Assembly: GCF_001039475.1 (NCBI RefSeq)
Contig: NZ_LELK01000001.1
Coordinates: 77,436 to 141,435 of the forward strand
Direction: 5' to 3'
Source: Guptibacillus hwajinpoensis
GTDB taxonomy: Bacteria; Bacillota; Bacilli; Bacillales; Guptibacillaceae
Length of the DNA: 64,000 bases
The number at the start of each line of letters is the position of its first letter. The first letter of the stretch is position 1. This document shows positions 1,249 to 40,780 of the stretch, in pieces. The notes beneath the pieces are model-generated. The model was not told the origin of the DNA. It did not search any database and saw only the letters and a program-made list of their open reading frames with translations. The translations under genes were made by a program, and so were the position numbers.

Positions 1249-1275
1249 AAAGACGATGCCATAAGCATCGTCTTT
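1249..1275. terminator. Bidirectional terminator between converging genes
   Basis: The arms AAAGACGATGC and GCATCGTCTTT are perfect complements with a 5-base loop. They are flanked by A-rich and T-rich tracts, so the hairpin can serve both the methyltransferase gene and yqgY on the opposite strand. Confidence 0.8.
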
Positions 1276-1287
1276 CTAGTGTTCTAA

Positions 1288-1533
1288 TTAATGTCCGCCT
1301 GAACCAGGTGTCATCATGAACACAGACCAGTATGAAAACCCGACCATAAATAATGTTAAGTATACACCAAAAATATACAAATAAGTACGTTCTGTTAAGT
1401 TCAAATAACTTAACGCGAAAAACATGCCGGCCTGGCCAAGGAACAGCAATCCTAATACAGGCATCCCACCAACAAAGCCCATTAGTGAGAAAATGCCGGT
1501 CCAGAAAGCTAAAACTCGGTACATTCTAGGCAT
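1288..1533 (-). CDS. yqgY: YqgY, DUF2626 family small membrane protein
   Basis: The start ATG at 1533 is preceded by GGGAGGAA on the minus strand, which is why the longer open frame upstream is not used. The 81-residue product begins MPRMYRVLAFW and has two hydrophobic segments, about residues 5-45 and 52-74, linked by NLTERT. It ends in a short Gly/Pro-rich tail. Size, sequence and position next to mgsR match B. subtilis YqgY (DUF2626). The function is unknown; an integral membrane location is inferred from hydrophobicity. Confidence 0.78.
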   Translation of the reverse strand: MPRMYRVLAFWTGIFSLMGFVGGMPVLGLLFLGQAGMFFALSYLNLTERTYLYIFGVYLTLFMVGFSYWSVFMMTPGSGGH

Positions 1534-1714
1534 AAAAGGTTCCTCCCTTGCTCGTTCATTCCCCATACATATCGTATTATATATGAGTTCTTGTCTAAAA
1601 GTAAATGCTAGTCTTGGCAAAATCATGTCTTTTATTAAGTAACCTTGAAAAGGGTTCCAATTTATTATCCCAAATCGTTCACAAAAATACAAATCTTTTT
1701 CTTGTACAATGTTT

Positions 1715-1740
1715 GTTTAACTGATGTATAATATGGGTAA
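1715..1740 (+). promoter_or_regulatory. Sigma-B-type promoter of mgsR
   Basis: GTTTAA (1715-1720), 14 bases, then GGGTAA (1735-1740) fits the sigma-B consensus GTTTAA-N12-15-GGGWAW. B. subtilis mgsR is a known member of the sigma-B general stress regulon. The start codon lies 40 bases downstream. A TATAAT at 1727-1732 lies between the two elements, so a sigma-A promoter cannot be excluded. Confidence 0.7.
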
Positions 1741-1780
1741 AGTTAGTTATCAACGGAAAACAAATCGGGGAGGATTTAAA

Positions 1781-2164
1781 TTGGAAGATAAATTATTGTT
1801 TTATACTTATCCAAGTTGCACATCTTGTAGGAAAACAAAAGCATGGTTAAAAGAAAATGGTGTTGATTTTGAAGAGCGTCATTTATTTAAAGATACACCT
1901 TCAATTGAAGAGTTGAAAGAAATCATTACACTGTCTACAGAAGGAATTGAAGAAATCCTTGCTAGAAGAAGCAGTTCTTTTAAAGGGCTTGATATTGAAA
2001 TTGAAGATCTTACTCTATCAGAAATGCTAGAACTAATGCACAATGAACCGAAATTACTTAGAAGACCTATTGTAACAAATGGTAAAAAGCTAATTGTTGG
2101 CTACAACAAGTCAGGTTTACAAAACTTAAAGCAACGCAAAAAGAGACTAGCAGTTGTTTCGTAA
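1781..2164 (+). CDS. mgsR: MgsR (YqgZ), Spx/ArsC-family general stress modulator
   Basis: I place the start at TTG 1781, just after GGGGAGGA. It gives 127 residues beginning LEDKLLFYTYP, the usual start of this family; the ATG at 1724 lies inside the promoter. The redox motif CTSC is at residues 13-16. The C-terminal RRPIVTNGKKLIVGYN matches the ArsC/Spx fold. Family members bind the alpha subunit of RNA polymerase. MgsR controls a subset of sigma-B stress genes in B. subtilis and is itself sigma-B dependent, which agrees with the promoter seen upstream. A paralogous Spx function is possible, but the locus supports MgsR. Confidence 0.85.
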   Translation: MEDKLLFYTYPSCTSCRKTKAWLKENGVDFEERHLFKDTPSIEELKEIITLSTEGIEEILARRSSSFKGLDIEIEDLTLSEMLELMHNEPKLLRRPIVTNGKKLIVGYNKSGLQNLKQRKKRLAVVS

Positions 2165-2170
2165 AGGAAA

Positions 2171-2245
2171 TGGCTGGGCTAGCTGGATTCGAACCAGCGC
2201 ATGACGGAATCAAAATCCGTTGCCTTACCGCTTGGCCATAGCCCA
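2171..2245 (-). tRNA. tRNA-Gln (anticodon TTG)
   Basis: Read on the minus strand, the 75-nt gene has a 7-bp acceptor stem (TGGGCTA with TAGCCCA), discriminator G and encoded CCA. The anticodon stem is AACGGA/TCCGT, and its loop TTTTGAT carries anticodon TTG. The T arm GGTTCGAATCC is intact. It stands alone, convergent with mgsR. Confidence 0.95.
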
Positions 2246-2263
2246 AGAGTTCATTTCCCTGTT

Positions 2264-2293
2264 AGTATAATCATAAATAAAGATCTTATACAA
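2264..2293 (-). promoter_or_regulatory. Promoter of tRNA-Gln
   Basis: On the minus strand TTGTAT and TATACT are separated by 18 bases, with the -10 about 19 bases before the tRNA 5' end. This is a good sigma-A match at the right distance. Confidence 0.6.
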
Positions 2294-2425
2294 AGGGTTA
2301 TATAGTTTTAATAACTTATATTGTTTGATCATAACGTGGTGGAGTAATGATCTTATTTGCAAATGTACTTTAATGGAATGTCCTATAGAGTTAATGAATA
2401 AGATAAAAACATAATCCATGTCACA

Positions 2426-2461
2426 GCGATATGTGGAAAATACTCCGCGTGTCGCTTTTTT
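2426..2461 (+). terminator. Terminator-like hairpin in the leader of the alpha/beta hydrolase gene
   Basis: GCGATATGTGGA pairs along all 12 positions, with three G-U pairs, to TCCGCGTGTCGC and is followed by six T. It lies about 100 bases before the hydrolase start, and no annotated gene upstream on this strand needs it. It could end a small RNA or act as an attenuator. The rest of 2294-2562 is AT-rich with no convincing gene; GATCAT and ATGATC form an inverted pair near 2328-2352. Confidence 0.5.
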
Positions 2462-2562
2462 GTGTGCGGTAAAAATGGATGAGAATGAAAAAAGTCCGAG
2501 AGTATCAATCTCAAGTGAGTTATTCTAGACTTATAACTTATGGGGATTGGAGAGATGAGAAA

Positions 2563-3429
2563 GTGACATGGAATCAGAACTTCGTTGAAACAGATCGAGG
2601 TACGTTTGAAGTCTTCATAAAGGGAGAGGGGCCTCCACTCTGTGTAACGCATTTGTACTCGGAATTTAACGAGAGCGGGGATTATTTTGCGGACATTTTT
2701 AGCGAGTCTCATACGGTGTATTTAGTGAATTTAAGAGAAGCTGGTAGGTCAGATTGTGCAAAAGCACCACATGAACTATTTATGATTGAGACGGTCTTTG
2801 ATCTTGAGAGTATTCGAGTAGCACTGCAAATAAGTCAATGGGTATTTGCTGGGCATTCTACAGGTGGAATGTTAGCTTGCGTATATGGTATCCATGCTTC
2901 CTCATCGCTTAATGCACTGATTGCAGTTGGAGGAGCAGCAAGAGAATATGGGTCATCATCGCCTGCATGTATTTATCACAAAGAGCATCCTGATCACTAT
3001 ATAATGCAAGATTACATAGAAGCGTTGAAAGATCCATCACTTGATTACGAAAAACGTCAGTTCATTTCAACAGAGCGAACAAAGCTCTCCCTTTATAAAC
3101 CTGAACAGTATAGAAATTATTTCGATAAATCGATACATAAAAAGATGGCAGCAACTCGAATGGATTTCTTTGCAAGAGAAATTCTGCAATTTGATGTTAC
3201 AAAGCAACTTCACCAAGTGACTGCTCCAACTTTAATTCTGTGCGGTAAGCATGATGTTCAGTGTCCCGTAGTATTTTCAGAAGAAATGGCAAGAGAAATA
3301 CCAAAAGCTCAACTTGCTATTTTTAACGAAAGCAATCATTATCCATTTCTTGAAGAAGAACAGGCATTTATGGAAGTGATCGATGAGTTTATGGATACAG
3401 TTAATGGGCTCTTTCCAAATCAAGCATAA
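2563..3429 (+). CDS. Alpha/beta-fold hydrolase
   Basis: GTG 2563 is preceded by GGAGAG with 8-base spacing, giving 288 residues. The longer frame from ATG 2479 has no ribosome binding site and adds a tail unlike the family. The catalytic triad is visible: nucleophile elbow GHSTGG (Ser99), Asp231 in CGKHDVQCP and His259 in NESNHYPF. The early VFIKGEGPPL strand and the NLREAGRSD segment resemble the proline iminopeptidase and haloperoxidase-like branch. The substrate cannot be assigned. It is a single gene between the tRNA and the comG operon and is probably cytoplasmic, as no signal peptide is seen. Confidence 0.75.
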   Translation: MTWNQNFVETDRGTFEVFIKGEGPPLCVTHLYSEFNESGDYFADIFSESHTVYLVNLREAGRSDCAKAPHELFMIETVFDLESIRVALQISQWVFAGHSTGGMLACVYGIHASSSLNALIAVGGAAREYGSSSPACIYHKEHPDHYIMQDYIEALKDPSLDYEKRQFISTERTKLSLYKPEQYRNYFDKSIHKKMAATRMDFFAREILQFDVTKQLHQVTAPTLILCGKHDVQCPVVFSEEMAREIPKAQLAIFNESNHYPFLEEEQAFMEVIDEFMDTVNGLFPNQA

Positions 3430-10832: not shown

Positions 10833-10934
10833 TTGCCAACCTTACTCAGGTAGTGGTAGGATTGAAATCGAAAGCATTACTAGTATGAATCAAACAAAGT
10901 AATCCAATACCTTAAAACTGAAAATAGGCGAATG

Positions 10935-11095
10935 AAAGCAAGAGGAGAGACTGCTGTATGCAGCGCCGAAGGAGCAAGCAAATTTGTGAATCTCTCAGGC
11001 AAAAAGACTCTTGCTAGACGCACCTCTGGAGAGAGCTATAATAGCCGCCAAAGATGTAATTCTCGCTATTGTGAGAAGAAACTTTCAGGTCAACG
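10935..11095 (+). ncRNA. Tandem glycine riboswitch (gcvT motif)
   Basis: The first aptamer contains GGAGAGACTG, GCGCCGAAGGAGCAAGC, then TGAATCTCTCAGGCAAAAAGA. The second follows a short linker with CCGCCAAAG, AACTTTCAGGTCAACGGGACAG. These are the conserved core blocks of the two glycine aptamers upstream of gcvT in Bacillus. Glycine binding lets the transcript pass the terminator that follows, so the glycine cleavage genes are expressed when glycine is abundant. Confidence 0.95.
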
Positions 11096-12300: not shown

Positions 12301-13644
12301 ATGAAACATCGTTACCTGCCAACAACTGATCAAGATCGCAAGGAAATGCTTGAAACCATTGGAGTAAAATCTGTTCAGGAACTTTTTGAAGATATTCCAG
12401 AATCTATCCGTTTTAAAGGTGTACTTAATGTAGAGAAACAGCTTTTTGAACCAGAGCTTATTCGCTATATGTCTAAACTCGCTTCCAAAAATGCCAATAC
12501 TCAAGAGAACGTATCATTCTTGGGTGCTGGTGTTTATGATCATGCCATTCCATCTGTTGTTGACCATGTTATTCGCCGCTCTGAATTCTACACGGCGTAC
12601 ACACCGTACCAGCCCGAAATTTCGCAGGGAGAATTACAGGCCATTTTTGAGTTCCAAACAATGATTAGTGAGCTTACAGGAATGGAAGTTGCGAACTCAT
12701 CTATGTACGATGGACCAACTGCTCTAGCAGAAGCAGGTCTTTTAAGTGCAGGTCAGACGAAGAAAAAGAAGATTATCGTTTCCAAGGCTGTGCATCCTGA
12801 AGCTCGCGCGGTTATTGACACATATGCAAGAGGGCAGCACCTTTCTGTTACAGAAGTAGACACTGTAGATGGTTTAACGGATCTTGATAAGCTTCAGAGT
12901 GAAATTGACGAAAACACAGCTTGTGTAATGATTCAATATCCAAACTTCTTCGGTCAGTTAGAGCCGTTACCAGAGATAGAGAAGCTTGTTCATGAACAAA
13001 AAGCAATGTTTGTTGTATCAAGTAACCCCCTTGCACTTGGACGTTTAACACCGCCAGGCGAAATGGGAGCAGATATTGTTGTAGGAGACTGTCAACCGTT
13101 TGGCATTCCTGCACAGTTTGGTGGACCTCACTGTGGGTACTTTGCTGTAACGAAAAAACTTATGCGTAAGGTCCCAGGTCGATTAATTGGGCAAACGACT
13201 GATGATGAAGGACAACGCGGGTTTGTTCTTACCCTTCAGGCACGTGAGCAGCATATACGACGTGATAAAGCGACTTCTAACATTTGTTCCAATCAGGCAT
13301 TAAATGCACTAGCTTCTTCAGTAGCGATGAGTGCGCTTGGTAAAGAAGGTGTTCGAAAGATGGCTGAGCAAAATATCAAAAAGGCTCATTATGCAAAGGC
13401 GCAATTGAAGAAAGCCGGTATTGAAACAGTGTTTGATGGTGTTTACTTCAATGAATTCGTCGTTAAATTAAATGGTTCCGTTAAAGAACTTAATCGTAAG
13501 TTAATCCAAAAAGGCTTTATTGGTGGGTATGATCTTGGTCGTGACTATCCAGAGCTTGCAAACCACATGTTGATTGCAGTAACGGAGAATCGTACGAAAG
13601 ATGAAATTGATGCATTTGCAGAAGAAGTGGGGGGAGCACAATGA
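12301..13644 (+). CDS. gcvPA: Glycine dehydrogenase (decarboxylating) subunit 1
   Basis: ATG 12301 follows AGGAGGAG, giving 447 residues and discarding an upstream extension that lies inside gcvT. It is the N-terminal half of the P protein, a fold type I PLP enzyme half without the Schiff-base lysine. Typical segments are [15 protein letters not shown] near residue 76 and [21 protein letters not shown] near 262. Bacillus and other Gram-positives split P protein into two genes, and the product pairs with GcvPB to decarboxylate glycine. The stop overlaps the gcvPB start as ATGA. Confidence 0.96.
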
Positions 13645-17153: not shown

Positions 17154-17230
17154 TAATCAATAAGAAACATTGCTTTTATACACATCTAGATAAACCTATA
17201 TATGTATAAATGTCGAAATGGAGGGGTTAT

Positions 17231-18022
17231 ATGACTATTCAAACTGATGAAAGAAGAAGGTCAATTAACATTGAACAGTTAAATAAAGACATTGAAATGT
17301 TTACGCAGGTTCAACCGATTAGCAAGGACATGCATTTAACACACAAAGGTGTTAGTCGTCTGGTTATGCTTGATCGCTATGCGTTTAAAGATACCGAAAA
17401 ACGCACGCTGCAAAAAGGTGATTTCGTCGTTCTTACAATTAAAGAAGATCCGAAGTTTCCGGCTCGTGGACTTGGGTTTATTGAAGAACTTCATTATGAA
17501 TCAAATAAAGCGACTGTAGCAGTACACGAAGATTATGTCGGTGTGCTAGATACTGAAGAAGAACGTGAGTCTGGGATGATTATTCGATCACTTGATGTGA
17601 TTGAGAAGCCACTTGAAGTTTTTTACGAGCAGATCGCACGCAGAAATGCACGTGGTCTTGCTGATGTAGAGAAAACAGAAGGGGAAAAGAAATATTGGGA
17701 AGGCCGGTTCTATAATGAACTTTCTTCTCTCAACTTTGTTCCAGCAGGTCGTGTTCTTTACGGAGCAGGAGCTGATACAGAAGTAACCTACTTCAATTGT
17801 TATGTTATGCCATTCCCGCAAGATTCAAGAGAGGGCATTTCGGAACACCGCAAACAGGTGATGGAAATAATGAGCAGGGGCGGTGGAGTTGGAACAAACG
17901 GCTCAACGCTGAGACCTCGAAATACGCTTGCAAGAGGAGTTAACGGCAAGTCTTCAGGGTCCGTTTCCTGGCTTGATGACATTGCGAAGTTAACACATCT
18001 TGTTGAACAAGGTGGGTCCCGT
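17231..18022 (+). CDS. nrdJ: NrdJ, B12-dependent (class II) ribonucleotide reductase, exon 1
   Basis: This exon encodes residues 1-264 of an 854-residue enzyme that reduces ribonucleotides using adenosylcobalamin. ATG 17231 follows GGAGGGG, preferred over the ATG-like start 21 bases earlier. Residues about 60-105 form a small beta domain. NFVPAGRVLYGAG and EVTYFNCYVMPF (Cys190, one of the reducing pair) are reductase motifs. The exon ends GGSR after a CGT codon; the next in-frame triplet is TAA, which belongs to the intron. The rest of the gene is at 18424-20196. Confidence 0.93.
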
Positions 18023-18423
18023 TAAGTCCATGGCGGGAATAAAATCTCGTGAATTGCTGGAACACCCTCAGAGCTTTCTTCACCACAACGTGACTGGCGA
18101 CAGTGAGCGTGATGGTTAAAAAAGAAGAAAGATTGGGCAATCAGCAGCCAAGTATCTTTGGAAACAAAGATAAAGGTTCAACGACTATTGAAACTTCCTA
18201 AAATCCAATATAATAGAGTCATCCTAAATAAGGTGGGAACTATCTTGGAGATAATGGAAGGAGTAAATCATAGTAATCGGCAACGGGGCTATGAGGCGCG
18301 AGACAAAGAAGAAATGATACAAGCTAATAATTTCTTTCTTTGATGATATAGTCTGATCTCATGTGAAAGCATGAGAGGATGGCAGAAATGACCATCCCCA
18401 CTAATTATAGTGAGTAACAATTG
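18023..18423 (+). mobile_element. Group I self-splicing intron in nrdJ
   Basis: The 401-bp insert has the group I core: P element AATTGCTGGAA (18052-18062), Q AATCAGCAGC (18139-18148), R GTTCAACGACTA (18176-18187) and S TGATATAGTC (18344-18353), with GACTA/TAGTC forming P7. The 5' exon end TCCCGT pairs with the internal guide GCGGGA (18033-18038), giving the required U-G pair at the splice site. TCCATG (18027-18032) pairs with the 3' exon CGTGGA as P10. Three P9 hairpins precede the terminal G at 18423. Splicing restores GGSR-RGAQM. No homing endonuclease motif is present in its short frames. Confidence 0.93.
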
Positions 18424-20196
18424 CGTGGAGCTCAAATGATTATGCTAGCTGACTGGCATCCAGATATTATTGAATTTATTATTTCTAAGATGCAAAATCC
18501 GCGTATTCTTCGTTTTCTTGTTGAGAATACGAAAGACGAGCAAATTAAAAAGCTTGCCGAAGATAAATTGAAATTCACTCCGTTATCCGAATCAGAAAGA
18601 TCAATGTACCAGAGTATCCTAAATTATCGAAGCATTCCCGGTACTGGTGGATTTGAAGAGAAGGTAATGCAAGATGCGCAAGAAAAGCTTCTTACAGGCG
18701 GCACGTATTCTGTCCATAACCCTGACTTTTTGACAGGTGCTAACATTTCAGTTTGCCTTACGAAAGATTTCATGGATGCTGTAGAGACTGATGGAGAATA
18801 TGAACTACGGTTCCCAGATGTTGAGAACTATTCTAAGGAGCAGATGGCTCTTTACAATGAGAATTGGCATGAATCTGGTGATGTTCGCGATTGGAAGGAT
18901 CAAGGTTTCCCTGTTAGAACTTACCGTAAAGTAAAGGCGAAAGACCTGTGGGATCTAATTAATATTTGTGCTACTTATTCTGCTGAGCCAGGTATTTTCT
19001 TTATCGATAATGCGAATGAAAAAACCAATGCTACATCTTACGGACAAAAGGTAGTTGCGACAAACCCTTGTGGAGAGCAACCTCTCGCTCCGTATTCGGT
19101 TTGTAACTTAGCAGCAGTAAACCTTGCAGAAATGGCAAACAAAGAAACGAAAACAGTTGACTTTGATAAGTTAAAGGAAACTGTTGAAGTTGGCGTACGT
19201 ATGCAGGATAACGTCATAAACGCAACACCGTATTTCCTAGACGAGAATGAAAAACAGGCTCTCGGTGAACGAAGAGTGGGTCTAGGTGTAATGGGGCTGC
19301 ATGACCTTCTTATTTATTGTGAAACGGTTTATGGATCAAAAGAAGGTAATGAGTTAACTGATCAAATCTTTGAAACAATTGCAACAACGGCGTATCGTGC
19401 ATCTGTTGACTTAGCGAAAGAAAAAGGCAGTTTCCCATTCCTTGAGGGCTCAACACTAGAAGAAACTAATCGTCTTCGTGAAGCATTTGTAAACACGGGC
19501 TACATGCAACAAATGCCGAATGATGTACGCGAAAGTATTCTGGATTATGGAATCCGAAATTCACACCTTTTGACAGTTGCCCCAACAGGAAGCACAGGTA
19601 CAATGGTAGGCGTATCAACTGGACTTGAGCCTTATTTCTCCTTCTCTTACTACAGAAGTGGAAGACTCGGTAAATTCATTGAAGTTAAAGCTGATATTTT
19701 AGCAGAGTACTTCGAAAGAAATCCAGATGCTGACACAGAAAAGCTACCTGAATGGTTTGTTTCTGCAATGGAGCTTGCGCCTGAAGATCATGCTGATACA
19801 CAATGCGTTATTCAGCGTTGGGTTGATAGTTCTATTTCCAAAACAGTTAATGCACCTAAAGGCTACACAGTTAAGCAAGTCGAAGCTGTATATGAGCGTC
19901 TTTATAACGGTGGCGCAAAAGGTGGAACTGTTTATGTAGATGGCAGTCGTGATTCTCAAGTTCTAACACTTAAAGCGGAAGAAAATTCGTTTGAACAGCT
20001 TGAATTCGATGATGGGATGCAAGAGAAAAAGCAAGTTGTTCTTGTAGACACCATTACCGACCTTCGTGCAACAGACGTTACGATTGGTTCAGAAGTAGGT
20101 AATACTTGTCCGGTTTGTAGAAAAGGACAGGTTAAAGAAATTGGTGGATGTAACACGTGTGATAACTGTAGTGCACAGTTAAAATGCGGACTATAA
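18424..20196 (+). CDS. nrdJ: NrdJ, B12-dependent (class II) ribonucleotide reductase, exon 2
   Basis: Exon 2 adds 590 residues. RGAQMIMLADWHPDIIEFI continues the active-site barrel directly from exon 1. NPCGEQPLAPYSVCNLAAVNL carries the thiyl-radical cysteine on the finger loop, and VAPTGSTGTMVGVSTGLEPYF is a phosphate-binding motif. The C-terminus CPVCRKGQVKEIGGCNTCDNC resembles the zinc-binding, redox-active tail of NrdJ proteins. No nrdI, nrdF or small subunit lies nearby, as expected for class II. Control is likely through NrdR and perhaps LexA. A terminator follows. Confidence 0.94.
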   Translation, partial: RGAQMIMLADWHPDIIEFIISKMQNPRILRFLVENTKDEQIKKLAEDKLKFTPLSESERSMYQSILNYRSIPGTGGFEEKVMQDAQEKLLTGGTYSVHNPDFLTGANISVCLTKDFMDAVETDGEYELRFPDVENYSKEQMALYNENWHESGDVRDWKDQGFPVRTYRKVKAKDLWDLINICATYSAEPGIFFIDNANEKTNATSYGQKVVATNPCGEQPLAPYSVCNLAAVNLAEMANKETKTVDFDKLKETVEVGVRMQDNVINATPYFLDENEKQALGERRVGLGVMGLHDLLIYCETVYGSKEGNELTDQIFETIATTAYRASVDLAKEKGSFPFLEGSTLEETNRLREAFVNTGYMQQMPNDVRESILDYGIRNSHLLTVAPTGSTGTMVGVSTGLEPYFSFSYYRSGRLGKFIEVKADILAEYFERNPDADTEKLPEWFVSAMELAPEDHADTQCVIQRWVDSSISKTVNAPKGYTVKQVEAVYERLYNGGAKGGTVYVDGSRDSQVLTLKAEENSFEQLEFDDGMQEKKQVVLVDTITDLRATDVTIGSEVGNTCPVCRKGQVKEIGGCNTCDNCSAQLKCGL

Positions 20197-40018: not shown

Positions 40019-40047
40019 TTGAGGATTACTATATTATATGGTATAAT
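40019..40047 (+). promoter_or_regulatory. Promoter of the OLE RNA
   Basis: TTGAGG (40019-40024) and a perfect TATAAT (40042-40047) are exactly 17 bases apart. They lie 7 bases after the ispA stop, and transcription would start near 40054, close to the expected 5' end of OLE. Confidence 0.65.
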
Positions 40048-40054
40048 AGGTTAA

Positions 40055-40662
40055 GCTAGAGTGGTGCAGTATTCTAGTCAGTTCGCCATTTCTGAAGGCG
40101 GGCCTAAAAATCCGCCATAGGGCACATCGATGAAGTTCCTGGTGTTGGCTTGAGTCGCCCAGACTTGGGTCGATGCTGGGAGTTAAGGTCGCAGGGCGAT
40201 CCACAAAGGCATGTGGGCGTTGACCCTGCTTCCGCGGAGGCCCATTCTTGTAGCAGTGCGGTTAACGCTGCCTGCTATGAATTGGGGTATGAACCTGTTT
40301 CAGCTGCATGGGAACGCAGTTGAACAGCGTAGCCTGCCTTGAGTGGAGCTAGAGGGGATTATGGATTATTGGAAATTTGCAGCTCGGCCGGCCGCGTTTT
40401 TCCTACCACCCATATGAAATCTGCTCTGCAAAAGAGGCTAGGAAATGTGTGGGGCTGTTGAGGAAAACTCCTAGACTGTTCCGAGTGACACTTAAAGGGG
40501 ATTATAGTGCGGACTAAGTGGTAATCCAGTCTAGCGCCTGGTGACTACGCTAAGGTTGATGTAAAGGGAAACCGCCTGAATGGCGACGTTCAGGTATCGA
40601 TCTGGGAAAACCTACTGGACCTAAGCCGCAGTCTTTACTCTTTAAGTGACCACTCTTCACTA
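40055..40662 (+). ncRNA. ole: OLE RNA (ornate large extremophilic RNA)
   Basis: About 600 bases without a protein gene lie between ispA and an oapA homologue, exactly where OLE occurs in Alkalihalobacillus halodurans. The sequence is far more GC-rich and structured than other intergenic DNA here. Recognisable conserved-looking blocks are GCCATAGGGCACATCGATGA, GGTGTTGGCTTGAGTC, GGGGATTATAGTGCGGACTA and CGCCTGGTGACTACGC. OLE forms a membrane-associated ribonucleoprotein with OapA and is linked to tolerance of cold, ethanol and magnesium stress in A. halodurans. The exact ends are estimated from the promoter and the family length of about 610 nt. Confidence 0.93.
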
Positions 40663-40780
40663 CATACTTTAACAAGGTTGTTTGATTGATAGGGAACAGG
40701 GGCCGTTTTGACTGACCCTTGAGCTACCTGTTAATTGAACACCTATTTTTATGTGATTATATAATGGACAAGGAGTAGAT

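Follow-up and report, generated by a model that had tools for sequence, protein, structure and literature searches.

The DNA analysed here, referred to as the window, is a stretch of 64,000 nucleotides from Guptibacillus hwajinpoensis (contig NZ_LELK01000001.1), and it carries an nrdJ gene for a class II ribonucleotide reductase whose reading frame ends at a TAA at position 18023 and resumes at 18424. The break, the restart and the 401 bases between them were described in an initial annotation made from the sequence alone, and its coordinates proved exact to the base. Both flanking segments match NF005991, the model for NrdJ, with scores of 464.9 bits for exon 1 and 1159.9 bits for exon 2 (the latter passes the cut-off of 854 on its own), and the two matches occupy adjoining model positions with neither gap nor overlap. 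The features of the interrupted gene are collected in Table 1. Elsewhere in the window are a full-length OLE RNA (40045-40669, + strand, 527.8 bits), a glycine riboswitch aptamer (10932-11020, + strand, 73.7 bits) and an open reading frame at 13641 that we take to resemble a glycine dehydrogenase subunit.

Table 1. Features of the interrupted nrdJ gene and its insert, in window coordinates.
Feature	Position	Strand	Description
ORF with nrdJ exon 1	17210-18025	+	Likely start is the ATG at 17231; TAA at 18023-18025 ends the frame
nrdJ exon 1	17231-18022	+	264 codons, ending ...GGSR with TCCCGT; NF005991 positions 5-263; Pfam PF00317 and PF02867
P1 exon strand	18017-18022	+	TCCCGT, terminal U.G
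Group I intron	18023-18423	+	401 nt, 5' TAAG, 3' AATTG; RF00028, single fitting cut, covariation
Internal guide	18027-18038	+	P10 strand TCCATG (18027-18032); P1 strand GCGGGA (18033-18038)
P3, 5' strand	18045-18051	+	Partner 18297-18303; 100% of cells paired, both-side changes in 3 of 7 pairs
P4 enclosing P5 and extensions	18054-18147	+	P4 is 18054-18059 with 18142-18147
P7, 5' strand	18183-18187	+	GACTA; partner TAGTC at 18349-18353; 98.3% of cells paired
LAGLIDADG homing endonuclease, N-terminal stub	18254-18319	+	MEGVNHSNRQRGYEARDKEEMI...; overlaps the ribozyme core; compared with intact relatives
Same endonuclease, C-terminal stub	18331-18351	+	FLSLMI and stop, in another frame; FSSLMI is the ending in intact relatives, for instance L022
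nrdJ exon 2	18424-20196	+	590 codons and stop, beginning R-G-A-Q-M; NF005991 positions 264-858 (match 18424-20193)

The insert has the properties of a group I intron. Specifically, the Rfam covariance model for this class (RF00028) places the core at 18013-18375 of the + strand, where it scores 82.3 bits (gathering score 50, E 2.1e-19), the match spans model positions 1-253 of 253, and a search of the whole genome returns the same place at E 3.3e-21. When cuts from 0 to 6 nt past the first Arg codon are tried, only the cut between the two arginine codons (R/R, with the slash marking the splice junction) keeps a U at -1, a terminal G in the intron and Arg-Gly over the junction, and the 3' end of the intron then reads AATTG/CGT. 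At this cut the exon end and the guide form a P1 of six pairs that closes in U.G at the 5' splice site, and the P10 strand of the guide forms six more with CGTGGA at 18424-18429, which are the pairings that the initial annotation had proposed. Its assignment to group I with one precise splice is also upheld by covariation among relatives and by intronless alleles, both treated below, and the ribozyme class leads us to expect that the intron is spliced. An intein is excluded because the insert starts with an in-frame stop. A second RF00028 match in this genome (contig 14, 984753-985037) reaches 35.4 bits, below the gathering score, and lies inside a gene that we read as recA, where an open reading frame is weakly like DUF559, just below the cut-off.

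The core fold is kept in related introns. The window intron was aligned with 22 others of the 36-member family described below, all of at most 600 nt and with the near-duplicate L068 left out, and the structure scored on these 23 sequences consisted of 71 pairs taken from the sequence of the window copy, whose own pairs therefore fit by construction. P1 and P10 were excluded because the aligner misplaces both in some introns, namely those spliced one codon further downstream. In this alignment 96.5% of cells are paired versus 84.0% in shuffles, both sides are changed in 217 cells versus 57.8, and the covariation score is 0.415 versus 0.166; none of 500 shuffles reached the real value on any of five measures, and controls with the structure slid out of place gave 36.5-45.7% paired. 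Changes on both sides occur in 36 of the 71 pairs, including all eight pairs of one helix in the P5 extension. Core helices from P3 to P9 are thus kept by covariation, except that P4, P5 and P7 are nearly invariant (four of the five P7 pairs never vary) and so are uninformative either way. The fit is poorer for one pair of the P5 extension, which forms in only 6 of the 23 introns, and for the last helix ahead of the 3' end, which fits 83.6% of cells.

No intact homing endonuclease is encoded in the window intron, whose longest open reading frame has 29 codons. The description 'endonuclease-free' given in the initial annotation is therefore functionally right, but remnants of a LAGLIDADG gene persist, one stub from each end. 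Close relatives carry the gene at the same place: among the 36 family introns, nine have an open reading frame of at least 240 codons, three have a long but broken one, and in 24, including that of the window, the gene is deleted. The endonuclease of L022 was the one scanned, and it matches LAGLIDADG_3; the others were judged by eye.

The window intron is one member of a family that occupies three successive codon boundaries of nrdJ, with 26 introns at R/R (the window included), eight at RR/G and two at RRG/A. This set of 36 combines the window, sampled loci and 29 new loci found among the matches listed from a search of 397 genomes of the order, of which 156 have a match to at least part of the intron. 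Those 29 loci among the listed matches all lie in nrdJ (21 at R/R, six at RR/G and two at RRG/A) and are 70-85% identical to the window intron in a single stretch covering 170 to 392 of its 401 bases; below the best matches, the rows represent mainly the core stretch at about 27-165 of the intron. The splice cuts of two loci, L090 and L042, were placed by hand. Family members in the nrdJ genes of other Bacillales include L022, L014, L015, L036 and L067.

Our sample of 51 nrdJ loci, chosen by likeness of exon 2, indicates how commonly this gene is interrupted. Inserts lie at R/R in four loci, at RR/G in two and at RRG/A in nine, and further sites are found 10 codons downstream of R/R and at two more places in exon 2. 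With 15 of the 51 loci carrying an insert at the motif and 22 carrying at least one somewhere in nrdJ, an intron in a chromosomal nrdJ is not the less usual occurrence that the initial annotation had supposed. The Bacillales nrdJ gene is an intron hot spot. Inserts in exon 2 were observed past codon 217 in seven loci (L045, L048-L053) and past codon 389 in five (L044, L046, L047, L052, L053), with lengths of about 170 to 1220 nt as judged from tblastn gaps, and some genes have two or three.

Guide and exon are matched throughout the family. All 36 introns form six of six P1 pairs, in four combinations: TCCCGT with GCGGGA (24 introns), CGTCGT with GCGACG (eight), AGTCGT with GCGACT (two) and CGTGGT with GTTGTG (two). 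The guide was taken as the best-scoring 6-mer starting with G near the intron start, and the last combination, which belongs to RRG/A, is thus weaker and possibly wrong; GCCTCGTC is another possible reading for these two introns. Non-cognate guides and exons also reach six of six pairs in 49% of cases, because one combination is common to most introns. P10 has six pairs in the window and two to five in the other family members.

The exons carry corresponding marks. TCCCGT precedes the intron in 24 of 26 R/R genes and is found in none of the 37 genes that are empty at the three boundaries, some of which have inserts elsewhere in nrdJ, while CGTCGT is present in all eight RR/G genes and in two of the 37 empty ones; related genomes are not independent in these counts, so a Fisher value cannot be used at face value. 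The 51-locus sample alone has TCCCGT in four of four R/R genes and in none of 36 empty genes. These marks fit a choice of target by the intron, flank exchange on homing, or selection for P1. A comparison of the window with the intronless L003 did not reveal flank exchange on homing: the -1 codon is CGT in place of AGA, yet downstream no difference occurs in the first 45 nt.

The initial annotation had proposed comparing nrdJ from relatives with and without the insert, and the empty site is indeed present in relatives (L003-L008, L037 and L038). In six of these (L003 to L008, entered under Pseudalkalibacillus, Alkalihalobacillus or Bacillus sp.) the site is uninterrupted and the exon 2 protein is 91-98% identical to that of the window, a likeness by which the host is probably a Pseudalkalibacillus. 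The nrdJ gene of L038 (Bacillus sp. RAR_GA_16) is matched in overlapping pieces, as would result from frameshifts or sequencing errors. Searching 13 same-genus genomes with the intron gave no match in nrdJ; six of them are without any match, and the other seven match the core stretch at loci that lack nrdJ. Two of those seven were read (L056 and L061), and in both the related core stretch follows ...AVLQLLR of a gene that its translation suggests is flagellin. The core nearest to that of the window is instead found in a distant host, L022, where the intron is spliced one codon downstream at RR/G and its LAGLIDADG gene is intact; the two cores are 92% identical, and the final 600 nt of exon 1 are 68% identical. 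Across the family, intron and exon distances are correlated (Mantel r 0.50, a value reached in 0 of 2000 permutations), and part of the history of these introns looks vertical by this measure.

A tree of the 36 introns, which holds nrdJ introns only, requires at least nine changes in endonuclease presence and at least five in splice site, and its inner branches are weak (13 of 37 are starred when four outgroup rows are included). With all columns used, a single clade is rejected both for the eight RR/G introns (p-AU 0.002) and for the 26 R/R introns (0.005), although paired columns are not independent in these tests, and once only a single strand is kept for most helices a single origin per site is no longer rejected (p 0.225 for RR/G and 0.177 for R/R). 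Among nine endonuclease proteins, the two from RR/G introns as one clade give p 0.063. A pairing of the window with L022 is absent from the best tree and is not rejected (p-AU 0.45).

That one intron family occupies several nrdJ sites is well supported by these sequences, whereas a history of several site shifts is not well supported. The boldest reading, which we hold tentatively and regard as slightly more apt to fail than to stand, is that one group I lineage might repeatedly step between adjacent codons by retuning its guide, with synonymous host codons (TCC CGT, AGT CGT, CGT CGT) recording each state and the R/R intron of the window being closest to an RR/G intron. The rival with the best prospects, which we nevertheless consider unlikely, holds that neighbouring boundaries were invaded independently by introns that were already distinct, with no shifts of a single lineage. 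Such invasions would fit the tests with one strand dropped and are in keeping with a second lineage at RRG/A, represented by nine inserts with a different 3' half, of which the four placed in the tree form one separate clade. The endonuclease of one of them (L025) matches DUF559 and, weakly, Vsr, so that two unrelated kinds of endonuclease are found at boundaries no more than six bases apart. Against independent invasion, the R/R and RR/G introns have a common core and the same LAGLIDADG kind of endonuclease, and the window intron at R/R is nearest to one at RR/G. Another insert of the second RRG/A lineage (L042, 1953 nt, with exons flanking about 1258-3210) holds two endonuclease-like open reading frames, the second of which matches LAGLIDADG_2, and it ends in A, not G.

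A phage origin of this exact intron was also considered and rejected, as matching phage records all cover less than 80% of its length. Relatives of the L022 endonuclease occur in 141 phage records and are all less than 60% identical, and a viral_contigs scan returned four relatives of 23-38% identity. The one phage nrdJ gene inspected was H40, the most similar to part of exon 1 (71% identity over residues 172-264), and its annotation shows a single CDS without interruption.

The initial annotation had further suggested that splicing could couple the output of nrdJ to Mg or to growth state. With a stop as its opening codon, the intron does make this output hinge on splicing, and a regulatory element responsive to Mg, GTP or growth state could in principle exploit this arrangement. 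However, such an in-frame stop opens all 34 introns at R/R and RR/G (33 TAA and one TGA), and same-genus relatives manage without the intron. The use of TGA in place of TAA hints that selection acts on the presence of a stop and not on particular letters, and an opening stop in introns of this type is usually attributed to keeping ribosomes off the ribozyme fold. A search of Rfam, the one resource used for this purpose, placed no other family inside the intron at gathering score. The coupling proposal thus found no support, and we regard a regulatory role as very improbable.

The weakest rival, which we judge to have scarcely any chance of being correct, is that the intron has decayed beyond splicing and nrdJ is a pseudogene whose work is done by a class I reductase, as might be argued from the additional reductase genes of this genome and from the loss of the endonuclease, but against this stand exons that are open and apparently under purifying selection (although some of their differences may predate the intron) and a window copy in which P1, P10 and the core helices are all able to form. 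Compared with the intronless L003, 245 of 271 nucleotide differences fall in synonymous codons (83 to 12 others in exon 1 and 162 to 14 in exon 2) and length is unchanged, and on this evidence both exons look to be under purifying selection. The interrupted nrdJ is very probably a whole gene, and one that automatic annotation is likely to split or to label as broken. Elsewhere in the genome there is a second large-subunit reductase gene, with a 751-codon frame free of stops, and two small-subunit matches of 355 and 305 codons; with these available, nrdJ may be non-essential.

Taking these sequence comparisons together, we are almost certain that the nrdJ insert is a group I intron that would fold and splice at 18022/18424, that was probably gained horizontally and has since lost its endonuclease, and that belongs to a family found at several adjacent sites. 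In the sequence of events that we propose, the transcript would fold so that the 5' exon TCCCGU lies paired with the guide GCGGGA, guanosine would attack past the U, and the exons would be ligated as ...GGSR-RGAQ..., as is expected of this ribozyme class. On unspliced RNA, translation would halt at the stop that opens the intron and yield a fragment of 264 residues. The intron probably arrived by way of a LAGLIDADG endonuclease that cut the empty site, and later deletion of that gene in the window copy would have left an intron able to splice but not to spread by itself. Across the family, the place of the intron may have moved by one or two codons, with the guide changed to match.

We believe that this family amounts to a natural experiment, in which one intron is present in one gene at consecutive splice positions, its guide matched to each, and its endonuclease gene ranges from intact to gone. 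Change of insertion site by a group I intron could accordingly be tested with a single ribozyme and a handful of short exons.

Introns of the same ribozyme class are well known from genes of the same kind. Passages of the RNRdb report describe more than 100 curated group I introns in ribonucleotide reductase genes (PMC2795772), a review covers those of Bacillus recA, nrdE and nrdF (PMC3984707), and split phage reductase genes have been tabulated with nrdJ listed twice (PMC3653736). Conserved regions host most group I introns, according to passages of Swithers et al. (PMC2814812). In the open-licence literature, no item joins 'intron', 'nrdJ' and 'Bacillaceae', and none of the titles and abstract openings listed describes this nrdJ intron family, although RNRdb may list this site; PMC11878797 has no passage on nrd. 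For introns of fungal nuclear rDNA, passages of one study propose that introns reach new sites through reverse splicing and that endonuclease genes pass into introns inserted at neighbouring positions (PMC1299323). Those introns lie in nuclear rDNA, whereas the window intron is in a bacterial protein gene, and steps of one codon are absent from those passages.

The introns in same-genus genes that read as flagellin and in Staphylococcus phages are 77-82% identical to the window intron over about 139 core bases, but they interrupt other genes. The introns in nrdE, nrdF, nrdA, nrdB and nrdD of Bacillus, cyanobacteria and phages are alike in ribozyme class and in the kind of host gene. The window intron differs from these in that it interrupts the class II gene nrdJ of a bacterial chromosome, at a site within GGSR/RGA. 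It is a further case of a known ribozyme class in ribonucleotide reductase genes, and not an oddity.
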